DNA of 64,000 nucleotides, from NCBI RefSeq assembly GCF_007997155.1, contig NZ_VORT01000003.1, positions 62,001 to 126,000 on the forward strand. The letters run 5' to 3'. The notes under the pieces were generated by a model that worked only from the letters and a program-made list of their open reading frames with translations, had not been told where the DNA came from and did no database searches. Positions 8,622 through 55,029 of the stretch are shown in pieces (position 1 is the stretch's first letter; the number at the start of each line of letters is the position of its first letter). The position numbers were made by a program, and so were the translations under genes. Source of the stretch: Aequorivita antarctica (lineage in GTDB: Bacteria; Bacteroidota; Bacteroidia; Flavobacteriales; Flavobacteriaceae).

Positions 8622-10313
8622 TTACAAAACTGAAACCATCAAGTTATCATCAGTCTTTTCAACTTTCGCAACCTTTGAAGCCGTCAATCCTTTTATAGCT
8701 TTGTCCCACTTTTTGTTGCTCAAACCGCTTTGGGCTTTTAACGCTTCCAAAGCAACAGGTGATTTGACTTTTAAAAGTGTGTAAACAGCTTTTTCGTCTT
8801 CGGTCATTTCCACTTTTTTCTTTTCGGGGCGCATTTGAGGGAAGAAAAGCACTTCTTGTATGGAAGGGTTGTTAGTCAAAAACATAATCAATCGGTCCAT
8901 CCCGATGCCCATGCCGCTGGTTGGGGGCATACCGTATTCCAAAGCTCTAAGAAAGTCATAATCTATAAAGGCAGTTGCTTCGTCATCACCTCTATCTGCA
9001 AGTTTCAATTGGGCTTCAAAACGCTCGCGCTGGTCTATGGGGTCATTCAACTCACTGTAAGCGTTTGCTACTTCCTTTCCGCAGACCATCAATTCAAAAC
9101 GCTCCGTTAATTCAGGATTTTCGCGATGCTCTTTGCAAAGCGGACTCATTTCCTTTGGGTAATCTGTAATGAAGGTTGGTTGAATGTAGTTGCCTTCACA
9201 CTTTTCGCCAAAAATTTCATCGATGAGTTTTCCTTTGCCCATGGTGTCGTCCACTGGAATTTTCATATCCAAAGCAGCTTTGCGGATTTCATCCTCAGTC
9301 TTGCCAGTAATATCAAAACCTGTAAAGTTTTGAATAGCCTCAGCCATTGTTACTCTTGGGTAAGGGGCTTTAAAGTCTATTTTGTGCTCTCCAAAAGTAG
9401 CTTTTGAGGTTCCGTTTACTTGTATAGCGCAGAATTCCAGCAATTGTTCACAGAAATCCATCATCCAGTTATAGTCTTTATAGGAAACGTAAATTTCCAT
9501 GGCAGTAAACTCTGGATTGTGGGTGCGGTCCATCCCTTCGTTTCTGAAGTTTTTGGAGAATTCATATACGCCGTCAAAACCACCGACGATCAATCTTTTT
9601 AGGTATAATTCATTAGCAATTCGCATATACAATGGAATGTCCAAGGAATTGTGGTGCGTAATAAAAGGTCTTGCTGCAGCACCACCCGGAATGGGCTGCA
9701 AAACAGGAGTTTCAACTTCAAAATAACCGCGTTCGTTAAAGAATGTTCGCATGGCGTTGAATAGCTTGGTTCGCTTTACGAAAATCTCCTTTACATGTGG
9801 GTTTACCACCAAATCCGCATAGCGCTGGCGGTAGCGTTGTTCAGGGTCTGTAAAAGCGTCGTGTACTTTTCCTTCGGCATCAACGCGCGGTTGCGGCAAA
9901 GGTTTTAATGCTTTGCTCAACAAGGTGAAGTTTTTTACCATGATGGTTTTTTCACCAACTTGGGTTTTGAAAAGTTCGCCTTCAATCCCTATGAAATCGC
10001 CTATATCGAGCAATTTTTTATAGACTTCATTGTAATGGCTTTTGTCTTCGCCAGTGCATATTTCATCACGGTTAAAATAAACCTGAATACGTCCATCTGC
10101 ATCCTGAAGCTCTGCGAAAGAGGCTGAACCTTGGATTCTGCGCGACATCAACCGTCCAGCAACCACTACCTTTTTTCCTTCCTCAAAATTGTCCTTTATC
10201 TTTTTTGAAGTGTTGTTTACAGGGTATAAATCTGCGGGATAGGGGTTTATTCCACGATCGCGCAGTTGTTGTAGTTTTTCTCTTCGGATGATTTCCAGTT
10301 CAGACAGTTGCAT
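8622..10313 (-). CDS. lysS: Lysyl-tRNA synthetase (class II)
   Basis: Charges tRNA-Lys. 563 residues: an OB-fold anticodon-binding domain (VVVAGRLMSRRIQGSASFAELQDADGRIQVYFN), then the class II catalytic core with motif 2 (FRNEGMDRTHNPEF) and motif 3 (GMGIGMDRLIM). A C-terminal extension of about 65 residues (EKKKVEMTEDEKAVYTLL...) is longer than in E. coli LysS (505 residues) and is usual in Flavobacteria. A TATCTTTG -7 element lies at 10338-10345, 24 nt before the ATG, and the gene is followed by a strong hairpin. Confidence 0.97.
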   Translation of the reverse strand: MQLSELEIIRREKLQQLRDRGINPYPADLYPVNNTSKKIKDNFEEGKKVVVAGRLMSRRIQGSASFAELQDADGRIQVYFNRDEICTGEDKSHYNEVYKKLLDIGDFIGIEGELFKTQVGEKTIMVKNFTLLSKALKPLPQPRVDAEGKVHDAFTDPEQRYRQRYADLVVNPHVKEIFVKRTKLFNAMRTFFNERGYFEVETPVLQPIPGGAAARPFITHHNSLDIPLYMRIANELYLKRLIVGGFDGVYEFSKNFRNEGMDRTHNPEFTAMEIYVSYKDYNWMMDFCEQLLEFCAIQVNGTSKATFGEHKIDFKAPYPRVTMAEAIQNFTGFDITGKTEDEIRKAALDMKIPVDDTMGKGKLIDEIFGEKCEGNYIQPTFITDYPKEMSPLCKEHRENPELTERFELMVCGKEVANAYSELNDPIDQRERFEAQLKLADRGDDEATAFIDYDFLRALEYGMPPTSGMGIGMDRLIMFLTNNPSIQEVLFFPQMRPEKKKVEMTEDEKAVYTLLKVKSPVALEALKAQSGLSNKKWDKAIKGLTASKVAKVEKTDDNLMVSVL

Positions 10314-10337
10314 AAATTATGTATAAAAATAAGTTTG

Positions 10338-10345
10338 CAAAGATA
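10338..10345 (-). promoter_or_regulatory. -7 element of lysS
   Basis: TATCTTTG on the minus strand, 24 nt upstream of the lysS ATG. It lies next to, but outside, the heptad array that begins at 10353. Confidence 0.55.
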
Positions 10346-10352
10346 GCGAAAT

Positions 10353-10499
10353 GAAGTGCGAATTACGAAGTGGAAAATTCGAAATACCTTGATTAGAAAA
10401 AAGAATAAAGAAAATAGAACAAAGAATCCAATGACTATTGCAAACCAACGAATTAACAAATCCCGAATCCCAAATCCCAAATCACGAAGTAACAAGTAT
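10353..10499. repeat. Degenerate 7-bp-periodic array A (21 heptads)
   Basis: The whole spacer between lysS and the thioredoxin gene can be cut into 21 consecutive 7-bp words without a register break. Sub-blocks share words: GAANTNC words at the left, five AGAANNN words in the middle, and AAATCCC / GAATCCC / AAATCAC words at the right next to an AATTAAC word. It ends at the stop codon of the thioredoxin gene. Compare the arrays at 13663, 14380, 14804, 18388, 54921 and 61927. No function known. Confidence 0.75.
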
Positions 10500-11392
10500 C
10501 ACTCTTTCCCCTTAATTGCCGCTATTGCAATTTTCACCCTTTCGTTATTGGGATTTATGGCCAGTGATTTCTCGTAGTTTAACAGCGCTTTTTCCATTTG
10601 GTTTGTAACATATAATTTGTTTGCCAAGTTTTCATAGGAATAAGATTCATTAGGAAACAAAATTGTATTCATTTCGGCAATATAGAGCCCCTCCGCTTTT
10701 CTTTCAGAGTAGAATAGAACACTGGAATAGGTACTTAATTCGCCTAAATGCTCAGCTTCTTTTTTTAGCTTCGGAAGCAATTTTTTTGACTTTCTCTGGA
10801 ATTTTTCAAATCCCATTTCGGTTAGCGCATCATTCACAATGGTAACCGCATTGTAGTTGGGCACGTAGCCTTTATCCTGAATAATTTGTAGAATATCATC
10901 CTCAAATGTATTGACGGGATGCTCCACAATTCTATTTATTTCTTTTCCGTCTTTGTAGAATATAAAAGTAGGAACGCGATGAATATTCAAACCTTCTTCC
11001 TCCCCGCCAGGGCTTTGTTTGTAGTTTTCGCTATCGTTTGATACAGCTATCACGGTAAGCCGATCCAAAGGAAATTGGGCTTCCTCCAGAATTTTATAGA
11101 ATATGGGAAGTTCCTTTTTACTGTCTCCACACCAAGTGCCAAAAAAAACAGTAATCGTGTATTGCGGAAGTAGCTTTTGTATAGCGACAACTTTTTCTTT
11201 ATTGGGTTGATAGGCTTCATAGTTTGTTAAAAACCATTCAGAATAGGTGTTTACTGAAAGTGCTTCCTTGTTGATTTTACCAAGTAACATTGGAGTTTCG
11301 CCATTTTGCATAATTTCTGTATTAAACGGCTGGGCGTAGTTAGTGAGAATTGAAAATGTAAATGCGATGGAAAAGAGAATTAAATTTTTCAT
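10499..11392 (-). CDS. Exported thioredoxin-fold protein with C-terminal TPR-like helices
   Basis: Start taken at ATG 11392, giving signal peptide MKNLILFSIAFTFSILTNYAQ; nine upstream codons are in frame but precede it. The thioredoxin fold (about residues 70-185) carries FFGTWCGDSKKELP, so the CXXC site is reduced to C88-G-D-S91, and a cis-proline follows in IHRVPTFIFYKDG. The rest is a helical region ending in a TPR-like repeat (ALLNYEKSLAINPNNERVK). With only one cysteine it cannot be a standard disulfide oxidoreductase; single-cysteine members often act as isomerase-like or binding proteins. It follows the LuxR-type membrane regulator on the same strand. Confidence 0.82.
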   Translation of the reverse strand: MKNLILFSIAFTFSILTNYAQPFNTEIMQNGETPMLLGKINKEALSVNTYSEWFLTNYEAYQPNKEKVVAIQKLLPQYTITVFFGTWCGDSKKELPIFYKILEEAQFPLDRLTVIAVSNDSENYKQSPGGEEEGLNIHRVPTFIFYKDGKEINRIVEHPVNTFEDDILQIIQDKGYVPNYNAVTIVNDALTEMGFEKFQRKSKKLLPKLKKEAEHLGELSTYSSVLFYSERKAEGLYIAEMNTILFPNESYSYENLANKLYVTNQMEKALLNYEKSLAINPNNERVKIAIAAIKGKE

Positions 11393-11490
11393 GGGTGCTG
11401 ATTTTAGAATTAACACCACGAATATTTAAAAAATGGAGGAAGAATTGCTGAAGACAGGGTTTGAAAAAGGGCCTAGACCCCCGTTTGAAT

Positions 11491-12552
11491 TTAACTGGAA
11501 TACAGGTTTTTAACGTCTTCCCGAGAGCTCACATTCAGCTTTTTATAGAGGTTATTAATGTGGGTTTTTACCGTGCTTAAACTAACGAACATATCAGAAG
11601 CTATTTCTTTGTTGCTTTTGTTTTCTAAAATGAGTTCCAGAACCTTCTTTTCTTGGTTAGAAAGAGATTCTTTATTGGGAGGGAAAAAACTTTTCATCTT
11701 TCTCAGTTTCCCATAAAAAAAGAAGTTGCCAAAAATTGATAAAGCTGCAATTGCACCCAACCCATAAACCCACCAAGACAATCCATCAGGTTTAATTGTA
11801 GCTATCAAATATTTATCTGAAGCAAGTTCCTCTCTGTATTGCTCTGTGTAATTGCTGTTGGGATATTTTTCTTTGAGCCTATTTAATAAATTGTCATAAT
11901 AGGAGTTGGTTTTTAAATCTTCCAAATAATAGGCATGCAACGGTTGTGCTCTGTCGGAAAAAAAGGAGTAGCTATAAAGCTCTGCCAAAGGTTCATGTAG
12001 CTGTTCGCCGTATTGTTGCAAAATGCTGAACCATTTTTTTGAATTAATTTTTCTATTAGCTTCACTGCGATAAGTACCAAAAGCAAAACGCATATCGTGT
12101 TTTAAGGAGTCGATTTTTAAAAAAGCATTGGCCTTTTCATTTTTAGAGATTACAAGACAGAACATCTCATTGTCAAACGAAAAAGGAAGCGTCAAAGTGT
12201 CGTTATTATTTGCGATAAAATTCACCTCTTTGCTATTTGGGCATTGCCCCGTGAAATGTGCCGTGTTTTGATCATTTTCGTTGCACATATCTACGTGGAT
12301 TCTATAAATTTTGTTTTCAGCAGGTAAATTATCCCCTGAAAAAGAAAAGTATCCTGTAGAATCAGGATATGTTTTATTGAGAATTTGCTCAGGAAATACT
12401 CCAGAAATTTTCCTGTAGTCATCAACCACAGAAAGATAAACAGCACCTTTGGCAGATTCAGCATCTACATAACCCGAAAATTGATATTGTGCTTTACTGG
12501 CCGTTACAGCAAAAAAGAAAACGAGCAGCGCAATAATTTTTTTGAAATCCAT
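11491..12552 (-). CDS. Transmembrane one-component regulator with LuxR-type HTH
   Basis: 353 residues. An N-terminal signal peptide (MDFKKIIALLVFFFAVTASKAQ) leads into an extracytoplasmic beta-rich domain (about 22-150) and a helical segment. A single transmembrane helix (WWVYGLGAIAALSIFGNFFFYG, about 262-284) is followed by a cytoplasmic LuxR/GerE helix-turn-helix (LSNQEKKVLELILENKSNKEIASDMFVSLSTVKTHINNLYKKL). There is no receiver or kinase domain, so the signal must pass directly through the membrane. The thioredoxin-like gene follows about 100 bp downstream on the same strand. The ligand is unknown. Confidence 0.8.
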   Translation of the reverse strand: MDFKKIIALLVFFFAVTASKAQYQFSGYVDAESAKGAVYLSVVDDYRKISGVFPEQILNKTYPDSTGYFSFSGDNLPAENKIYRIHVDMCNENDQNTAHFTGQCPNSKEVNFIANNNDTLTLPFSFDNEMFCLVISKNEKANAFLKIDSLKHDMRFAFGTYRSEANRKINSKKWFSILQQYGEQLHEPLAELYSYSFFSDRAQPLHAYYLEDLKTNSYYDNLLNRLKEKYPNSNYTEQYREELASDKYLIATIKPDGLSWWVYGLGAIAALSIFGNFFFYGKLRKMKSFFPPNKESLSNQEKKVLELILENKSNKEIASDMFVSLSTVKTHINNLYKKLNVSSREDVKNLYSS

Positions 12553-12646
12553 TTTTAAAATAAATCACTAAGGTAATAAACTCTGTTGAATCAAAATCTT
12601 GTAACAAAAGGAAAAATGACGGGACAGATAGCTTAAATAATAATCG

Positions 12647-12654
12647 TAAATTTG
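12647..12654 (+). promoter_or_regulatory. -7 element (TAAATTTG) 6 nt before a start codon
   Basis: Exact TAnnTTTG match ending 6 nt before the ATG at 12661; the expected transcription start falls at or next to the start codon. Confidence 0.55.
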
Positions 12655-12660
12655 TTTTCT

Positions 12661-12819
12661 ATGAATATATGGAGAGTCCTGTTAGCAATCATTTTTCCAC
12701 CACTTGCAGTTATTGGCAAGGGTTGTGGATCTGTTCTTATTGTCTTTATACTTACCGTTTGCGGATGGATTCCCGGCGTGATTGCCGCACTTATCATTCT
12801 AAACAATCCTAAAAGATAA
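12661..12819 (+). CDS. YqaE/Pmp3-family small membrane protein
   Basis: 52 residues with two hydrophobic helices: NIWRVLLAIIFPPLAVIGKGCG and VLIVFILTVCGWIPGVIAALIIL. The 'FPPLAV' and 'CGWIPGVIHA'-like motifs are those of the Pmp3/YqaE (UPF0057) family, which in yeast and plants affects membrane potential and salt tolerance; in bacteria the role is unclear. It is followed 4 nt later by a lipoprotein gene, so the two form an operon. The promoter element is unusually close to its ATG. Confidence 0.88.
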   Translation: MNIWRVLLAIIFPPLAVIGKGCGSVLIVFILTVCGWIPGVIAALIILNNPKR

Positions 12820-12823
12820 ACCC

Positions 12824-13564
12824 ATGAAACTAAAATTACTTTCGCTATTTATCTTGGCTTTTACTTTTGTAAGCTGCCAATTTACGGAAACTATGGTTAT
12901 GAATGAAGACGGTAGCGGCACCATGAGAGTGGAAGTGAACCTCAACGAAATGATGGCCTTTGGCGGCGGGGCAATGGGTGATTCAACAGTAATGAAAATG
13001 GATACCATTGTCTATATGAAACAATTTTTGGAGGAAAAGAAAGACAGTATCTCCAAACTTTCCATCACCGAACAACAAAAACTGAAAAAGTTGGAGAATT
13101 TCAACATTCATATAAAAATGGACTCGGAGACTTCTGAAATGGTTTATGATATTTCCACCAATTTCAAAAATATAAATGAGGCGAATGATATGCTGAACGG
13201 ATTGGAACAGGCTGGAAATTTAATACCCAACAAAGATGCGAATACCGAAATTAAAAAGGAAGAAGATTCCCCCGAAGTAGTTGGTGTTAATTATTCTTTT
13301 AAAAATGGTATCTTTAAACGAGATGCTTACATAAAAGACGAAAAGCTGCACGCACAGCAAGTAGACAGCATGAAACAAGCCGAAGCTTTTATGGGTGGTT
13401 CCAATTATATGTTGAAATATACTTTTCCAAAGAAAATAAAGAATACTTCAAATCCAGACGCTACATTTTCAGCAGATAAAAAAACAGTAAGTATTCAAGC
13501 ACCTTTTTTAGAATACTTTAAAAACCCGGATTTGCTGGATTTAGAAGTGGAGTTGGAGAAATAG
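12824..13564 (+). CDS. Lipoprotein of unknown function
   Basis: 246 residues. Lipoprotein signal MKLKLLSLFILAFTFVSC with the lipobox at VSC. The mature part begins QFTETMVMNEDGSGTMRVEVN, a pattern seen in flavobacterial lipoproteins whose name is only 'hypothetical'. Acidic and lysine-rich, with predicted mixed alpha/beta content and no enzyme motif. Co-transcribed with the YqaE-like gene (4 nt apart). The stop codon is followed at once by heptad-like words (TTGAGTT, ATGAGTT, ATTGATT). Confidence 0.7.
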   Translation: MKLKLLSLFILAFTFVSCQFTETMVMNEDGSGTMRVEVNLNEMMAFGGGAMGDSTVMKMDTIVYMKQFLEEKKDSISKLSITEQQKLKKLENFNIHIKMDSETSEMVYDISTNFKNINEANDMLNGLEQAGNLIPNKDANTEIKKEEDSPEVVGVNYSFKNGIFKRDAYIKDEKLHAQQVDSMKQAEAFMGGSNYMLKYTFPKKIKNTSNPDATFSADKKTVSIQAPFLEYFKNPDLLDLEVELEK

Positions 13565-13662
13565 GGAATCGTAAATATTGAGTTATGAGTTATTGATTAC
13601 GAGCTCCTTCCCCTAGTTACTAATTTAAATTAATTGACGGAAACACCCTTTAAAGGCAGGGG

Positions 13663-13762
13663 GAATTAACAAATCCCGAATCACAAATCACGACTCACAA
13701 ATCACGAATCCCGACTCACGACTCACGAATCACGAATCCCGACTCACGAATCACGAATTAAC
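13663..13762. repeat. 7-bp array B (12 heptads) framed by GAATTAAC
   Basis: Twelve heptads in strict register, 13671-13754, all fitting RAMTCMC (AAATCCC, GAATCAC, GACTCAC, AAATCAC, GAATCCC). GAATTAAC sits directly on both sides (13663-13670 and 13755-13762). The array is 16 bp before the ATG at 13779. It is the most regular of the arrays and shares its words with the right end of array A and, in reverse complement, with array F at 54921. Confidence 0.85.
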
Positions 13763-13778
13763 ACTAAACACATAAAAC

Positions 13779-14315
13779 ATGAAAGCACTCTATTTTTTAA
13801 TCCCATTATTTATGGTAAATGCTTGCAAAACGCAAACGGGTGCTGTAACCTCTTCAGAAAACACAACGATAGAACATATGGAAAACAAACCAACAGGCTG
13901 TCCTGAAGAAGGAACTTGCAACGTAGTCGTCCATAAAAACAAAAGCTTGTCCATACAAGAAGATGGAACTGGTGCCTTATATCCTCAAATAATAGAAGGT
14001 ACAAGTACAGTAGTAGAATACACTTATTTAAAAGAAGGTCCTCCGGGAACGGCAGACGGCAATTATTCTGAAACCATTCACTTTGAAATTCCTGCGGCCA
14101 CAACAACATTGCGCAAGGAAAACGCATCCTTGAACGATGTAAAACTGCTCTACGGAAAACACTGTTTTTGCAGAGGGGAAGCGGGTTATTACCCAATAAC
14201 CGACGGAAAGCTTTTAATTGAAAAAAGCGGTCAGGGAATTGTGTTCGATCTTAAATTTAAAGTAAATAAAACCTCACAAGTAGTTACGCATATTTCGGAA
14301 ACGATGAAACTTTGA
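13779..14315 (+). CDS. Lipoprotein of unknown function
   Basis: 178 residues; signal MKALYFLIPLFMVNAC with the modified cysteine at about residue 16, followed by KTQTGA. The mature part is beta-rich (VVEYTYLKEGPPGTADGNYSETIHFEIP) with four further cysteines (CPEEGTC, CFC). The repeated glycine/threonine pattern is compatible with a beta-sandwich. No known family is recognised. It lies between array B upstream and a purine/pyrimidine heptad array downstream. Confidence 0.65.
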   Translation: MKALYFLIPLFMVNACKTQTGAVTSSENTTIEHMENKPTGCPEEGTCNVVVHKNKSLSIQEDGTGALYPQIIEGTSTVVEYTYLKEGPPGTADGNYSETIHFEIPAATTTLRKENASLNDVKLLYGKHCFCRGEAGYYPITDGKLLIEKSGQGIVFDLKFKVNKTSQVVTHISETMKL

Positions 14316-14424
14316 AGTAGAAAAAAGAGAAAAGAATAAAGAGGATAGATGTTAGATATTGATTAAATAATCACTTTTTACATTCTCTTTTCTTTATTCT
14401 TTTTTCTTTGCTCTTTATTCTTTT
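14316..14424. repeat. 7-bp array D with 14-bp inverted repeat, upstream of the four-helix-bundle gene
   Basis: Begins right after a stop codon. A purine half and a pyrimidine half are complementary: AAAAGAATAAAGAG (14330-14343) pairs perfectly with 14411-14424. In 14380-14421 six successive heptads all end in TCT (ACATTCT, CTTTTCT, TTATTCT, TTTTTCT, TTGCTCT, TTATTCT). The RNA could fold into a long A-U-rich hairpin just before the ATG at 14440. Confidence 0.75.
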
Positions 14425-14439
14425 ACAAAAAATACTGCA

Positions 14440-14799
14440 ATGCGAAAAAGGCATAATTATAAAAACTTAAATATTTGGAAACTGGGACTACAGATAACCA
14501 TGGATATTTCTGATATTTTAGACACTTTTCCTAAACACGAAATATTTGGATTGACATCGCAAATGAGTCGTTGTTCTGTTTCAATGCCTAGCAATATTTC
14601 AGAAGGTTCTGCAAGAACCGATAAGGCCTTCAGTAATTATTTGGATATTTCCCTTGGATCTTCTTTTGAATTGGGAACTCAGCTATTGATTGCTCATCAC
14701 AAAAATTATATAACCACAGAAACGCTGGAAGAATTGGAAGCAAAAATTTCAGAGTGGCAGAAAATGACAATGGGCTTTCAAAAAAGATTAAACGGCTAA
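14440..14799 (+). CDS. Four-helix-bundle protein (S23 / bAvd-like)
   Basis: 119 residues. The sequence NYKNLNIWKLGLQITMDISDIL, HEIFGLTSQMSRCSVSMPSNISEGSAR and FSNYLDISLGSSFELGTQLLIAHHKNYI is the '23S rRNA intervening-sequence protein' (S23, four-helix-bundle) family. Members occur inside intervening sequences of 23S rRNA genes, as the Avd accessory protein of diversity-generating retroelements, and as orphan genes. Here no retroelement reverse transcriptase or rRNA is near, so it is an orphan copy. It is enclosed on both sides by heptad arrays (14316-14424 and 14804-14936), which suggests that gene and repeats travel or evolve together. Confidence 0.88.
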   Translation: MRKRHNYKNLNIWKLGLQITMDISDILDTFPKHEIFGLTSQMSRCSVSMPSNISEGSARTDKAFSNYLDISLGSSFELGTQLLIAHHKNYITTETLEELEAKISEWQKMTMGFQKRLNG

Positions 14800-14803
14800 G
14801 AAA

Positions 14804-14936
14804 CCCCGTCTTTCCTCTTTATTCTTTATTCTTTATTCTTTATTCTTTATTCTAAAAAAAAGAGAAAAGAACAGGAACCACCCCGTCTTTTCTCTTTATT
14901 CTTTATTCTATTTTCTTTATTCTCTATTCTACTCAG
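14804..14936. repeat. 7-bp array E (ATTCTTT words) with direct and inverted repeats
   Basis: Four perfect ATTCTTT heptads (14821-14848), then a purine-rich centre, then TTTATTC-type heptads (14895-14929). The string CCCCGTCTTTYCTCTTTATT occurs twice, at 14804 and 14881, exactly 77 bp (11 heptads) apart. AAAGAGAAAAGA (14859-14870) and its complement (14886-14897) form a hairpin with a T-run on the minus strand, which may terminate the protease gene ending at 14933. Confidence 0.8.
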
Positions 14937-17197
14937 TTCTTAACAACCTTCTTAGTAGTTACTTTATTTCCGTTTTTCACAACAAGGAAATACATTCCAC
15001 TTTCAACATAATTGTAATCCAATTGTTTGCTGAAAGTATTTGATGCAGAAACATCGTCAAAAGTAGTTTGACCGATAATTCTTCCTCTTAAATCATATAA
15101 CGAAACTTCAATATTATCATTGGAAGCTGGTTTGAAAGTAAGGTTGAAAGTTCCGTTTGAAGGGTTTGGATAAACTGCAAAGTTTTCAAACGTGAATTCT
15201 TCAACACCAACAGTTCCTGTTACAGTAATAACGGCATTATTAATATCATAGAAAATGTTGTCAGACGAAATAACCATCAACCTACCTGTTGTAGTGTTAA
15301 GGTTTGGCACGTTTACAATAGCACTTCCATTGTTTGGTACACCCAATGCAACAGCTACTGGATAAGTAAGTCCGCCATCAGTAGAGAACATAATATCAAC
15401 ATTAGGACTGTCCACTGGAGCTACATCAGTTCCTGCAACATCCCAAGTAACGGTTTCAGTAGTTTGGGTAGTCCAACTAGTAGCAGTATTTTGCGAGCTT
15501 ACCACAAATGGTCCTGCGGTTCCATCTACAGTAACAAACATATCATCACGTGCTGAAGATCCGCCAATGGCTGCATTATCACGAACGTTATATCTAAAAC
15601 GCATCGATCTTCCTACTTGAGGAACAACTTCCCAAGTGCTCTGTGTGTTTCCAGCTAATACAGTTGCCAATGCTGGCATATATCTGTCTGGTGATAGCAA
15701 TGGATCAATAGACCTAAAAGCTGGCCCTACTGTTGAAGTGTTTTGTGGTGGTTGAGGGGAATCTTGATTATCCATCTGCTCCCAGCAGTGTGAAAGCACA
15801 TCTCCTGCGTCAGGGTCTGTAGCAGTACCTCTCAAAATAAATGGAGTTCCTTTTGGAATAGTCATATCAGGGCCAGCATCTGCCGTTGGCGGCAAGTTGT
15901 TGGTTGGGCTTTGCACCGCGCACTGGCCTTGACCATTTTTAATATAAGTCCACATTTCCTGTATGCTTATACCGTGAAAATAGTCATCACTATGTGTTTG
16001 AACATTCTGGGGAGCGCATATTCCCGCATATGCCATAATTGTGGAACCACTTCCTGGCTCAAAAGCAGTAGGTAGGTTTCTATTGCCCCCGCCGCAAGCA
16101 TTTGCAGTTCCATTAAAAGTATGGTTTGCGCCGAATTGATGTCCCATTTCGTGCGCTACATAGTCAATATCATAATTATCCCCAATTGGGGCATTAGTTC
16201 CAGTTACTCCTCTTGCTTTTTGACCAGTAACGCAGGGTACACGTAAACCGGCGATACCCCCAGCTCCAGTACTGAAAACATGGCCTATGTCATAATTGGC
16301 ATTTCCAATAATATTATCACAGGTAGTTTGGTTTTGGCCAAGCATTGTACTTCCGTTATTGTTAGTGTATGGATCTGAGCCCGAATTAAGAAAGATAATA
16401 TCTGTGTTGTTGGCTACTATAACCATAGTCAATGCAACATCCCTTTCATAAACACCATTTACACGCGTCATGGTAGTGTTCATTGCTGATAATACAGCAG
16501 CTTTTTTAACGGCATCAGGAGCACCTGGATCAACACCTTGTTGGTTTAAGTGATATTGCGAATATTCCCCAGTACAAGCCAAAGCAAGTCTAAAGGTTCT
16601 TAAAAGACCATCGTTTGCATTTCTGTTGGCTTCAGGCATATCTATTATCTCATGTTCCACTGTGTTACACTCAAAATCTCCAGAATATGCAGGAAGTGTA
16701 TTGATGTTATAAGAAATGTAATAGTTCTTATCACTGGTATAAGGATCAATATAGATAGTAGAATAGTTTGGTGAAGAAATCATCACATTTACACCTACAC
16801 TAGAAACACTAAACCGTGCTACGGCTGAAGCATCTTCAATTCCCTGAGCCACATAAGATCTAATATTTGGGTGTTGTGCCTGTAGCGGAGCTTCCATTAT
16901 GGAAGCTTCATATACACGGAAATGTTGAAGTACACCATTGTTGGTAGGCAACTCTATAATAACATTGCTATGTACGGTATTTCTTGCCGGAGCGTGAGTC
17001 AAAAGAGTTGTTAAAGCTGAAGTATTAAGATCAAACAGATTGTAATCCTGCGGCATCGAGTTTCTAAAAGCTTTCTGTCGGTTTTGCGTTTCAGTAGACG
17101 AAGCTTTCGTCCATAACGCATTGTTCTGTGCATTTACCCCAAAGCATAAGAGTGCAAAGGATAAAACCAGCATGTGTTTAAAAGTACTTTTTTTCAT
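14933..17197 (-). CDS. Secreted reprolysin-like zinc metalloprotease with T9SS type A tail
   Basis: 754 residues. Signal peptide MKKSTFKHMLVLSFALLCFGVNAQ; a propeptide-like region to about residue 200 (FRVYEASIMEAPLQAQHPNIRSY, RTFRLALACTGEYS). The catalytic domain carries the metzincin motif HEMGHQFGANH (first His 349) and a Met-turn-like STIMAYAG. After it come a linker, a fibronectin/PKD-like region (DAGPDMTIPKGTPFILRGTATDPD), a further beta domain, and a C-terminal sorting domain (FAVYPNPSNGTFNLTF...). Exported by T9SS to degrade protein outside the cell. The stop codon lies inside the last heptad of array E. Confidence 0.9.
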   Translation of the reverse strand: MKKSTFKHMLVLSFALLCFGVNAQNNALWTKASSTETQNRQKAFRNSMPQDYNLFDLNTSALTTLLTHAPARNTVHSNVIIELPTNNGVLQHFRVYEASIMEAPLQAQHPNIRSYVAQGIEDASAVARFSVSSVGVNVMISSPNYSTIYIDPYTSDKNYYISYNINTLPAYSGDFECNTVEHEIIDMPEANRNANDGLLRTFRLALACTGEYSQYHLNQQGVDPGAPDAVKKAAVLSAMNTTMTRVNGVYERDVALTMVIVANNTDIIFLNSGSDPYTNNNGSTMLGQNQTTCDNIIGNANYDIGHVFSTGAGGIAGLRVPCVTGQKARGVTGTNAPIGDNYDIDYVAHEMGHQFGANHTFNGTANACGGGNRNLPTAFEPGSGSTIMAYAGICAPQNVQTHSDDYFHGISIQEMWTYIKNGQGQCAVQSPTNNLPPTADAGPDMTIPKGTPFILRGTATDPDAGDVLSHCWEQMDNQDSPQPPQNTSTVGPAFRSIDPLLSPDRYMPALATVLAGNTQSTWEVVPQVGRSMRFRYNVRDNAAIGGSSARDDMFVTVDGTAGPFVVSSQNTATSWTTQTTETVTWDVAGTDVAPVDSPNVDIMFSTDGGLTYPVAVALGVPNNGSAIVNVPNLNTTTGRLMVISSDNIFYDINNAVITVTGTVGVEEFTFENFAVYPNPSNGTFNLTFKPASNDNIEVSLYDLRGRIIGQTTFDDVSASNTFSKQLDYNYVESGMYFLVVKNGNKVTTKKVVKN

Positions 17198-17344
17198 TTT
17201 ATTTGTGATTATTATGAATGTTTATAACTGTAAATATAAGAGTCTTTAGGGAAATTTGGGAAACTTTAAGAAACTAACTTTCTGCATTTAGCTAAAAAAA
17301 CGCATAAAATTCAAAAAATGAATCCTAGAAATGTAATTTATCAA

Positions 17345-17352
17345 TAGTTTTG
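17345..17352 (+). promoter_or_regulatory. -7 element of lipB (TAGTTTTG)
   Basis: Exact TAnnTTTG match, 24 nt before the TTG start at 17377. This supports that start. Confidence 0.5.
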
Positions 17353-17376
17353 CCCTTAATTTTTTAAAAAGCTACA

Positions 17377-18102
17377 TTGAATCGATCGCTAGAAATAATA
17401 GATTTAGGGTTAAAAGATTACCAAGAAACTTGGGATTTTCAGGAATCGCTTTTTCAAAATATTCTTCATATAAAAAGCAACAACAGAAAAGATAATTTGG
17501 AGCAAGCCACTCCAAATTATCTTTTGTTTGTGGAGCATCCGCACGTATATACCCTCGGAAAAAGCGGCCATATTGAAAACCTGCTCATTTCTGAAGAAAA
17601 ATTAAAAGCCATAAATGCTAAATTCTACAAAATAAACCGCGGCGGCGATATAACCTATCACGGCCCGGGACAGATTGTTGGCTACCCAATTTTGGATTTG
17701 GAAAATTTTTTTACCGATATCCACAAATACCTCCGTTTACTAGAAGAAATGATTATCCGAACCCTAGCGGAATACGGTCTAAAAGCAGAACGTAGCAAAG
17801 GCGAAACTGGAGTTTGGCTTGATGTCGGTACCCCCTTCGCCAGAAAAATATGCGCCTTGGGTGTCCGCGCCAGCCGTTGGGTGACCATGCACGGTTTTGC
17901 ACTAAACGTAAATACCGATTTGGGTTATTTTGACAATATGATCCCCTGCGGAATTAAAGGCAAGGCGGTAACCTCCTTAAATGTGGAATTGGGAAAGGTT
18001 GAAATTTCTATGGAAGAAGTGAAAGAAAAACTTTTGAAACATTTTCTTGTTCTTTTTGAAGCTGAAGTGAAACAAGAAGAAAATCACCATATTTCATTAT
18101 AA
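17377..18102 (+). CDS. lipB: Lipoyl(octanoyl) transferase, TTG start
   Basis: Moves octanoate from acyl carrier protein to lipoyl domains, for example of the pyruvate dehydrogenase whose E1 beta is encoded at 25390. 241 residues with all family marks: PNYLLFVEHPHVYTLGKSG, NRGGDITYHGPGQ, K157 in ARKICALGV, and catalytic C191 in MIPCGIKGKAVTSL. No ATG is available: an in-frame TAA lies at 17365-17367 and the first Met codon is deep inside the protein, so TTG at 17377 is the start, giving the usual N-terminus (NRSLEIIDLGLKDYQETWDFQE). Confidence 0.95.
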   Translation: MNRSLEIIDLGLKDYQETWDFQESLFQNILHIKSNNRKDNLEQATPNYLLFVEHPHVYTLGKSGHIENLLISEEKLKAINAKFYKINRGGDITYHGPGQIVGYPILDLENFFTDIHKYLRLLEEMIIRTLAEYGLKAERSKGETGVWLDVGTPFARKICALGVRASRWVTMHGFALNVNTDLGYFDNMIPCGIKGKAVTSLNVELGKVEISMEEVKEKLLKHFLVLFEAEVKQEENHHISL

Positions 18103-18461
18103 AAAATAGAAACTCTTGTTACCTTTAAAACGGGGACTGAGCGGAGCCGAAGTGCAGTAAAAGGGTCTGCCATCTTTAAAACGGGCACTGAGCGGAGCCG
18201 AAGTGCATTCGAAAGCTTTTGTGCCAGTCCTGAGCGGAGCCGAAGTGCAGTAAAAAGGCCTTCCTCCTTCGTCCCTCCCTTTAAAACAAAAGAGGAATCT
18301 TTAGAAGGGATTTCTAATTGAGATGAGATAAGCAAATAGATTTAAAAACTATTAAAAGCCTAATATTGTGTTATCGTCAACTATCAGGTTAGAATTTGTT
18401 ATTTGGAATTTGTTATTTGGAATTTGTTATTTGGAATTTGGAATTTGTTATTTGTTATTTG
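18103..18461. other. Repeat-filled intergenic region
   Basis: A 359-bp spacer containing three copies of a 20-bp palindromic element (18136-18249) and most of heptad array C (18388-18478). The minus-strand frame at 18084-18335 is read out of the repeats (TALRLRS three times) and is not a gene. Confidence 0.7.
18136..18249. repeat. Three copies of CTGAGCGGAGCCGAAGTGCA
   Basis: Copies start at about 18137, 18189 and 18230. The middle copy, with GCA to its left, has pairing ends (GCACT / AGTGC) and an inner CGG/CCG, so it can fold as a short hairpin. The first two copies are preceded by the same TTTAAAACGGG. It belongs to the same kind of dispersed palindromic element as TGAGCCTGTCGAAGT in mutS (60835-60858). 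Confidence 0.8.
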
Positions 18462-18478
18462 TTATTTGTTATTTAAAC
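18388..18478. repeat. 7-bp array C, TTTG(TTA/GAA) heptads
   Basis: Eleven perfect heptads from 18395 to 18471, each TTTGTTA or TTTGGAA, with one decayed unit on each side. In reverse complement the words are TAACAAA and TTCCAAA, close to the AAATCAC class of arrays A and B. The stop codon of the minus-strand gene at 18462 lies inside the array, which also encodes its last residues. Confidence 0.9.
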
Positions 18479-19169
18479 AAATATACTTCCCAATCATATA
18501 CCGCGTAATGGGCTTTAAAGTCTTCCCAGTTTGCGGATGCAAACCATAGCTGGTAAAATATTCAAGATCGCCATCCCTGTTTTTGCCATACCAAACCCGA
18601 ACGCTTCCATCTTCATTAAAAAACTCAGATTCACAAGTCGGTGTAACTTTTTCAAAATCAATTATTCGTTCCTCTTTATAAGCTTTAAGGTTTCCTTCTC
18701 TTAGTTTTTCTGAATCAAAGGAAGCTTCAATATAATGTCTTCCCTCCCATTCCATCCAACGCTGCTTGGTAAAATAATGATACCCAAAGAACCCAATAAC
18801 CGCTAGCAAAACAACAGCTATAATAGACAGTACTAATTTATTTTTCTTCTTTGGAACCTTTCTTCCCTCTGAAATTCCCTTTACTTCATCTATAGTATTC
18901 TTAACAAGAAAATCCCTGTAATTCTCATATCCTAAATATTGTGCTAAAGCAATCAAAACTTCTGGTCTTGGAATTTGAATATCATCATCCGAGTTTTTAA
19001 CAGCCCTTTTATATAGTGTTCTAAAACTTTTCTCTCCATAGGGAAAAACTTCCGAAACAATTTCAGACAACCTATGTGCGCATTTTGAATCCGATGGCTC
19101 TTTATGACCTTCAAGCGCCAATTCCTCGCTTACTTTATCAAAAGCTTTTAAAAGTAATTCGCTATGCAT
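18462..19169 (-). CDS. Single-pass membrane protein of unknown function with N-terminal helical (HTH-like) domain
   Basis: 235 residues. The N-terminal 100 residues are helical and soluble (KAFDKVSEELALEGHKEPSDSKCAHRLSEIVSEVFPYGEKSFRTLYKRA ... PRPEVLIALAQYLGYENYRDFLV); the second half looks like a helix-turn-helix or similar small DNA-binding fold. A lysine-rich stretch and a transmembrane helix (LVLSIIAVVLLAVIGFFGYHYF, about 110-131) follow. The C-terminal 100 residues would be outside the cytoplasm and include WEGRHYIEASFD and VWYGKNRDGDLEYFTSYGLHPQTGKTLKPITRYMI. I do not recognise a named family. The upstream region has repeated CCTTTCCA motifs, a possible autoregulatory site. Confidence 0.6.
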   Translation of the reverse strand: MHSELLLKAFDKVSEELALEGHKEPSDSKCAHRLSEIVSEVFPYGEKSFRTLYKRAVKNSDDDIQIPRPEVLIALAQYLGYENYRDFLVKNTIDEVKGISEGRKVPKKKNKLVLSIIAVVLLAVIGFFGYHYFTKQRWMEWEGRHYIEASFDSEKLREGNLKAYKEERIIDFEKVTPTCESEFFNEDGSVRVWYGKNRDGDLEYFTSYGLHPQTGKTLKPITRYMIGKYICLNNK

Positions 19170-54920: not shown

Positions 54921-55029
54921 ATATTTGTTATTTCGGGATTCGGGATGGGTTAATTCGGGATTCGAGATAGGGGCAACTTGAATTGACTTCATCGGTTTGG
55001 AATTTGGTACTTGAAATTTGGTATTTTTG
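54921..55029. repeat. 7-bp array F leading into the waaA promoter
   Basis: Two blocks of heptads: TTATTTC, GGGATTC, GGGATGG (with GTTAATTC inside) at 54921-54970, which in reverse complement repeat the GAATCCC / GAATTAAC words of arrays A and B; and TTTGGAA, TTTGGTA, CTTGAAA, TTTGGTA at 54996-55023. The last words merge into TATTTTTG (55022-55029), the -7 element of waaA. Confidence 0.7.
55022..55029 (+). promoter_or_regulatory. -7 element of waaA (TATTTTTG)
   Basis: Exact TAnnTTTG match ending 6 nt before the ATG at 55036. A TTTG 22 nt upstream (54996-54999), contributed by the heptad array, may be the -33 element. Confidence 0.6.

Follow-up and report, generated by a model that had tools for sequence, protein, structure and literature searches.

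Heptad word arrays of Aequorivita antarctica and mirrored arrays around S23-family genes

The spacer between lysS and a thioredoxin-like gene in the 64-kb stretch of Aequorivita antarctica DNA analyzed herein (the window) looks as though written in seven-base words, which raises the question of what such an array is and how it might arise. A first-pass annotation had described a strict 7-bp register kept over 147 bp by 21 successive words. The identity at lag 7 over 10353-10499 was 0.543, compared with 0.323 ± 0.034 in dinucleotide shuffles, none of 2000 of which reached the observed value, and additional identity peaks were found at lags 14 and 21. While the signal goes beyond chance, the register held in three blocks only, located at approximately 10353-10387 (GAANTNC), 10395-10429 (AGAANNN) and 10458-10501 (RAATCMC) and separated by unlike DNA, and each of the three word classes proposed earlier corresponds to one of them. 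When the words were written out, CTTGATT, AATGACT, ATTGCAA and ACCAACG resembled no neighboring word, and a strict register of 21 words was not borne out. The neighboring genes had been named correctly, lysS encoding a 563-aa protein with a class II tRNA synthetase domain; the thioredoxin-like gene, which showed a TPR-like end in a profile search, terminates at the stop codon (10499-10501, minus strand) where the array starts. The spacer at 10353-10501 holds a real but degenerate solo array built of 7-base words, and the genome has many other such arrays.

A lag-7 array with a score of at least 10 also stands upstream of lysS in 14 of the 26 species with a located start, and in most Aequorivita species the promoter-like TATCTTTG of lysS is immediately preceded by a run of TTTC-type words, as judged by eye. 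On alignment with G019, the word stretch proved to be of the same length with different words, and in pairwise alignments of the lysS spacer, confined to species-level relatives, few gaps had a length divisible by 7. Inserts forming palindromes of the CCTGCCTGCC..GGCAGGCAGG type were observed inside or beside the heptad arrays upstream of lysS in G023 (L136) and G026 (L145), as well as in the G019 and G015 spacers among the window-array loci compared, and in G015 (L143) a short palindrome stands immediately behind the lysS promoter-like TATCTTTGCA.

Heptad arrays across the genome and the genus

Arrays of this kind are abundant in the 3.84-Mb genome (66 contigs). In a 400-kb sample outside the window, the spacers showed a lag-7 excess with a z of 7.4 over 60 within-spacer shuffles, as had been expected of intergenic DNA genome-wide, and lag 8 came second (z 5.2); in 63-bp windows over the 64 kb, lags 7, 14, 21 and 28 were prominent. 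When arrays were defined by a score of at least 16, a sample of 864 kb, consisting of the window and 40 stretches of 20 kb, contained 33 lag-7 arrays versus two in one shuffled copy; lag 6 gave 11 arrays and lag 8 eight, while lags 4, 5, 10 and 13 gave none. Proportional extrapolation from this sample gives about 150 lag-7 arrays per genome. Spacers hold 27 of these 33 arrays; three are at stretch edges and three in ORFs, the ORFs having been called crudely as the longest non-overlapping frames.

The first-pass annotation had named six further heptad spacers in the window, of which 13663, 14316, 14804 and 18388 turned out to be strong, while 54921 reached only a score of 10 and 61927 held no array at that score. 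The array at 13672-13784 (AATCACG/ACTCACG/AATCCCG) has a score of 58, and that at 18394-18474, in which GAATTTG and TTATTTG words alternate, crosses a stop codon. A weak heptad stretch at 54996-55026 contains the 19-mer TTTGGTACTTGAAATTTGG, which is repeated at unrelated sites of the genus. With up to one mismatch, the 19-base sentence TTTGGTRCTTGAAATTTGG gave 55 matches at unrelated loci in 16 of the 28 genus genomes searched, and one match when reversed (our own sums); its exact form occurs in two of 395 phylum genomes, namely that of A. antarctica and one from another family. The 31-bp composite TTTGGAATTTGGTRCTTGAAATTTGG (54996-55026 in the window; L279-L308) was seen across the genus at numerous loci that are not related to each other, and in several cases a gene starts a short way downstream of it; it had no plasmid match, and on viral contigs its 19-mer core was found in one stretch.

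A preference for stop codons was likewise confirmed. A stop codon was no more than 10 bp away for 23 of 36 own arrays versus 10.7 ± 2.1 under random placement (0/1000), and for 15 of 36 arrays of the relatives versus 8.0 ± 2.0. Since repeats of other periods also stand near stop codons, to a lesser degree (10 of 30 versus 5.5 ± 1.6; 23 of 61 versus 11.1 ± 2.5), this proximity is partly a general feature of spacer repeats. The idea that heptads supply stop codons was discarded, as the bias of sense-strand over antisense stop triplets (172 versus 99) was shared by reversed triplets (229 versus 119).

The degenerate, multi-class heptad system suspected at the outset does exist, and its words are common to dispersed loci. 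Among the 32 own array loci, 22 of 496 pairs more than 1 kb apart had 14-mers in common, compared with one pair when the words were reversed, and within arrays adjacent words are the most similar. Three RAATHMC words in tandem matched 662 times in the 28 Aequorivita genomes versus 45 times in reversed form (our own sums); across 247 phylum genomes the pattern was present in 29 and the reversed pattern in 17 (our own count). Dispersal restricted to single genomes was considered and rejected, because 44 of 1440 own-relative pairs also had 14-mers in common (reversed, 0.2% of own and 0.5% of own-relative pairs); word sharing between species nearly equals that within the genome, and there is therefore no strong dialect.

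Arrays usually differ between related species, and the expectation that they would be present there in similar form was borne out upstream of lysS, in the 14 of 26 species given above, and failed at 13663, where an array with a score of at least 10 was found in only three of 14 relatives and with different words. In five relatives (G001, G010, G013, G018 and G020) the latter spacer measures 24-56 bp and has no array. Behind the stop codon at 14315, the short words differ between related species, some of them being under the score threshold and recognizable by eye alone. From the recurring positions and differing words at orthologous spacers, it follows that positions tend to recur and that words change fast. 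Near-perfect, young arrays were found in G027 ((AGTCTCT)10, L224:96-179) and G009 ((ACAAGCC)6, L222:3277-3318); both are missing from the sister stretches compared, in which the adjoining DNA differs as well. The stretches of the sister pairs G001/G013 (86.1% identity) and G009/G027 (95.6%) hold too few arrays for copy-number steps. In G009, a tandem repeat of higher order, its unit being about 130-180 bp long, was observed on the minus strand of L263 (C2:417550-420570) at approximately 300-1900; each unit is itself written in heptads with stepwise changes and in differing numbers.

Tandem heptamers as such are known. In the available parts of the reports on heptanucleotide repeats (TAACTGA, PMC4679880; GGGAATC and GGGGA(T/C)T, PMC4692102), the units are likewise intergenic and tandem, are mixed or degenerate in some genomes, and vary in length and sequence between related genomes; heptamer arrays in Aequorivita and Gramella are already in print there (PMC4679880), with Aequorivita sublithincola among the genomes listed.

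S23-family genes between mirrored arrays

Two of the strong arrays of the window oppose each other across a gene. The heptad stretch AGAAAAAAGAGAAAAGAATAAAG..CTTTATTCTTTT at 14319-14423 begins 3 bp past a stop codon, and the arrays at 14809-14930 face it from the other side of a plus-strand frame of 119 aa at 14440-14799, which belongs to the S23 family (PF05635, E 2.9e-29, 101.8 bits versus a cut-off of 33.8), that is, the 23S rRNA intervening-sequence proteins with a four-helix bundle. The S23 family is the one found inside the intervening sequences (IVSs) of 23S rRNA. The left arm, 14319-14349, pairs with 14809-14839 (inverted score 21) within the right word array (CTTTATT)n at 14809-14870, and a second right array at 14886-14930, whose end is 2 bp away from the next gene's stop codon, likewise has an inverted match with the left arm (score 18.5). 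Between the two right arrays stands a hairpin, AAAAGAGAAAAGAACAGGAA..CGTCTTTTCTCTTT, with similar copies in G001, G013, G018, G021 and G022. The 14319-14423 stretch is predicted to fold on itself as a long hairpin (z -5.2), and the two arms of the element to pair in the RNA (z -2.2, based on only 20 shuffles). The whole, 14319-14930, sits between protein genes and not within a 23S rRNA gene, and the S23 protein is the sole enzyme candidate encoded between its arms, where neither an integrase nor a transposase was found. The Avd/bAvd proteins of diversity-generating retroelements belong to the same four-helix fold family as this protein; its match to the bAvd profile, however, amounted to 24.7 bits, below the cut-off of 40.

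The A. antarctica genome contains ten S23-family genes, and their flanks (150 bp each side) were examined for inverted alignments with a score of at least 14, together with the best-scoring S23 loci of the genus (29 new, 27 usable) and of the phylum (30, 29 usable), which are not a random draw. Inverted flanks were found at seven of the ten own genes, at 19 of the 27 best-scoring genus loci and at 11 of the 29 best-scoring phylum loci, the other 18 of the latter staying under the threshold; a Riemerella locus scored 20. Among control ORFs of 90-170 aa, four of 130 in the own genome (the window S23 gene included) and two of 162 in the genus passed, as did nine of 678 own ORFs of 90-2000 aa, and flanks mismatched between different S23 loci passed in 2.2% (own), 5.4% (genus) and 1.2% (phylum) of cases. 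Direct similarity of the flanks was likewise raised at 11 of the 27 best-scoring genus loci.

The flanking sequences are themselves periodic. A lag-7 score of at least 11 was reached in a 150-bp flank at nine of the ten own S23 genes, and lag-7 arrays stood on both flanks at seven of ten own and 11 of 27 best-scoring genus loci, compared with one of 130 and none of 162 controls; among lags 5-12, only 7 and 8 were enriched. In a combined test, which took 110-bp flanks and accepted either an inverted score of at least 14 or a period-7-to-9 array with a score of at least 13, eight of ten own, 25 of 27 best-scoring genus, 17 of 29 best-scoring phylum and 14 of 15 cyanobacterial plasmid loci passed, the figures for control ORFs being 54 of 698 and 81 of 903; the S23 loci are explained almost wholly by period 7, followed by period 8. 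The word is 7 or 8 bp long, specific to each element and alike on both sides. When S23 loci with unlike neighbors were compared (2081 pairs, non-orthologous), more similar proteins weakly tended to have more similar words (r 0.18; 0/999 permutations), provided that the words were read in the same sense; in the opposite sense there was no such correlation. Aequorivita S23 genes bearing TAGTATTGAGTA words, for instance, have them in common with S23 genes of other families. It is nearly certain that S23 elements in Aequorivita and in the cyanobacterial plasmids described below possess a mirrored-array architecture, which is likely to be general. A side observation concerns L053 (C65) of the own genome, where mirrored GTCAGTG-type arrays (1-44 and 591-621) surround a 152-aa frame (47-505) with no Pfam match, possibly another cargo.

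S23 elements inside operons and a 23S rRNA gene

The S23 protein query matched 29 plasmid records, mostly cyanobacterial, of which 17 were read (H1, H3-H10, H12-H15, H18, H19, H23 and H24) and 14, all cyanobacterial, were counted. One flank or both hold a heptad array in twelve of the 14 loci, and eight have inverted flanks with a score of at least 14. Because the 25 ORFs adjoining the plasmid S23 genes share their arrays and are hence not a clean control, 127 genes of three such plasmids were used instead, giving one inverted case, eight with an array on either side and none with arrays on both. The words again differ from element to element, e.g., GTAGGGA in Nostoc edaphicum, AACAGGG in Nostoc C052, AGGGTGT in Calothrix, AAAAGGG in Geminocystis and AGGTGAC in Anabaena; the Picosynechococcus arrays have period 8, those of Pseudanabaena are direct instead of inverted on both sides, a second Nostoc locus reached an inverted score of 27, and the S23 gene of Calothrix sp. 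PCC 7716 has no arrays.

Several of these genes interrupt operons, namely as nrdB-S23-nrdA, cas6-S23-cas4 (two plasmids) and cmr2-S23-cmr3 (L396, L398, L402 and L403), and S23-free nrd and cas operons were found in Calothrix NIES-4105 and Dolichospermum UHCC 0315A. At the cas6-cas4 site, the entire spacer differs between the occupied form in Anabaena and the empty form in Dolichospermum. In the Nostoc nrdB-S23-nrdA RNA, the arms are paired in the predicted fold (z -6.2), making it, along with the window element, one of two elements for which pairing of the ends is predicted. A further occupied and empty pair comes from Azospirillum lipoferum, in which an open S23-like frame of 143 aa lies within a 23S rRNA gene (L411; RF02541, 2421 bits): an IVS of 473 bp replaces 19 bp of the same strain's other 23S copy and bears heptad arrays, mutually inverted, at both very ends, while the empty copy has none. 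With 19 bp replaced here and the whole spacer changed at cas6-cas4, neither site yielded a readable target-site duplication. In Gemmatirosa, mirrored period-8 words accompany an S23-like frame of 120 aa (by eye). Mirrored arrays were thus seen at S23 genes of Bacteroidota and of cyanobacterial plasmids, and once each in Azospirillum and Gemmatirosa. On viral contigs only two of the ten S23 genes examined had inverted flanks of at least 14, and S23 proteins did not appear in phage records at E 1e-5.

The likeness to known 23S IVSs with an S23 ORF consists in an S23-family gene inside a terminal inverted repeat; in contrast to these, the Aequorivita and cyanobacterial elements examined lie between protein genes, their arms are arrays of locus-specific degenerate words, and their excision is a prediction. 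According to the available part of PMC4990558, the Coxiella IVS, termed a selfish element, has ends that form a 28-bp stem and is excised by RNase III, and tandem heptamers in two to three copies, depending on the strain, precede its S23p gene; these heptamers stand beside the S23 start codon, and the Azospirillum IVS likewise has heptads, in inverted arrays at its very ends. The same part states that S23-type proteins have no known function, and describes XCC0516 of Xanthomonas campestris, the solved structure that our S23 query matched (2gsc), as a pentamer. X. campestris is also reported as abundant in GGGAATC heptamers, according to the available part of PMC4692102, a coincidence that we record. 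Among the papers listed by searches of the open-licence literature (subscription papers lying outside its range), PMC4990558 alone was seen to place heptameric repeats beside S23p, and PMC4046660 yielded nothing on the subject; the main text of PMC4679880 contains none of the terms "S23", "intervening sequence" and "four helix", and that of PMC4692102 neither "S23" nor "four helix". The link of heptad arrays to S23 genes, together with the mirrored pairing, is the new part of the present analysis.

Origin of the elements and of the solo arrays

The explanation that we favor for the whole, and regard as somewhat more probable than its opposite, is that of IVS-like S23 elements whose word-array ends pair and are cut out. 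Such an element would consist of a word array, one PF05635 gene and a mirrored word array, and a 23S rRNA IVS with an S23 frame would be the version sited in an rRNA gene. It would replace a spacer, often beside a stop codon, or the loop of an rRNA helix; in the transcript its ends would pair and the element RNA would be removed in the way known from RNase III and IVSs, which would make the insertion tolerable. The words could spread by slippage of 7-8 bp and by copying between the ends, which would keep the ends alike, and upon loss of the S23 gene a solo array may remain. Mobility, RNA cutting and any role of the S23 protein are what we infer, and S23 proteins between mirrored arrays are candidates for an array-binding protein.

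Three other accounts were weighed against this one. The arrays may be ordinary heptanucleotide repeats, generated by 7-bp replication slippage in spacers, drifting by point mutation and surviving beside stop codons where they do no harm, with the S23 elements unrelated and simply employing a similar type of sequence at their ends, and we give this account not far from an even chance. It agrees with the likeness of neighboring words, the near-perfect (ACAAGCC)6 and (AGTCTCT)10 missing in sister stretches, the repeats of other periods near stop codons and the distance of most arrays from S23 genes, as well as with the polymerase-slippage idea of Mrazek 2007, which the available parts of PMC4679880 and PMC4692102 cite; slippage is indeed the simplest source of single arrays, and for the templated process suggested in the first-pass annotation we came upon evidence neither way. 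The words, however, are non-random, as seen in the 662 versus 45 matches of the RAATHMC triplet and the 55 versus 1 of the non-periodic 19-mer, and slippage alone gives no mirrored pairs around one gene family.

It is unlikely, in our estimation, that S23 genes were inserted into array-rich spacers and that the arrays are landing sites instead of parts of the element. The own genome does offer many S23-free spacer arrays, and the direct arrays on both sides in Pseudanabaena would fit; each arm nevertheless resembles its partner much more closely than it does the arms of other S23 loci, the Azospirillum IVS brings its own arrays to a site whose empty copy has none, and the prevalence of inverted halves speaks against insertion into one array, which would leave direct halves. 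Least probable, and only barely credible, is that the arrays are functional themselves as binding sites, promoter-upstream elements or terminators. This would suit the TTTC-type words upstream of the lysS promoter-like sequence (by eye) and the long hairpin of 14319-14423, to which similar terminator-like hairpins correspond in the next spacer of several relatives. Against it, orthologous spacers carry other words or no array, the RNA structure of 13663, 18388 and 10353-10499 does not exceed chance (z 1.44, -0.67 and -0.64, respectively), and no Rfam match at the gathering threshold was obtained over 9900-18600.

Extending the IVS-like element reading, we tentatively suggest, while thinking it the less probable outcome, that S23 genes form a widespread class of such elements with inverted 7-8 bp arrays, that the S23 protein acts on the arrays or their RNA, and that many intergenic heptamer arrays are element ends or relics. 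Two features of bacterial DNA, the abundance of heptamer repeats and the S23-type proteins, would thereby be joined: if S23 genes regularly travel between mirrored arrays, the repeats acquire an owner and the protein a likely target. Binding, RNA cutting, and gain and loss would then become measurable. IVSs would not be special to rRNA genes either; they would be one of the forms taken by an element that also gets into ordinary operons.

Solo arrays, 10353-10499 among them, may be relics of S23 elements, a real possibility that we nonetheless rate below even, and for the reported spacer itself plain slippage is the strong rival. The 27 Aequorivita lysS loci are free of S23 matches up to a distance of 1.5 kb, and 10353-10499 has no 10-mer in common with 7-bp S23 arms, the arms of the window element excepted. 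Arrays not near an S23 gene make up 39 of 42 in the own genome and 45 of 49 in the stretches of relatives. An inverted partner within 2 kb was found for four of the 42 own arrays, three of them at the S23 locus, leaving one of 39 elsewhere, and direct partners for seven of the 42. At 22 of 32 loci, solo arrays have 11-mers in common with S23 arms, compared with 12 when the arms were reversed; as 12-mers gave nine versus eight, the case for descent from S23 arms based on common words was set aside as weak. Across Bacteroidota, arrays and S23 genes co-occurred strongly (median 11 versus 2 S23 genes) with kinship ignored, and the co-occurrence vanished within one family (p 0.34) and was weak within the genus (rho 0.34, p 0.08).

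Judging from sequence comparison, two sites give an idea of how a relic might appear. At the window S23 locus, the whole S23 frame is retained in G022 and only residues 66-113 in G018, the other nine of the 11 relatives having none; in a transporter spacer, G014 has array, S23 gene and array, and the own genome the left array only, with other repeats in place of the S23 gene. Three S23 loci of the genus were mappable to the own sample; for one of them the own genome has an array at the site, for the other two it has none. The repeats at the site of the G014 S23 gene (own genome, L054:17200-18400, C65) are about five copies of an approximately 50-bp unit (CAGTTCGAGTGTTTTT..).
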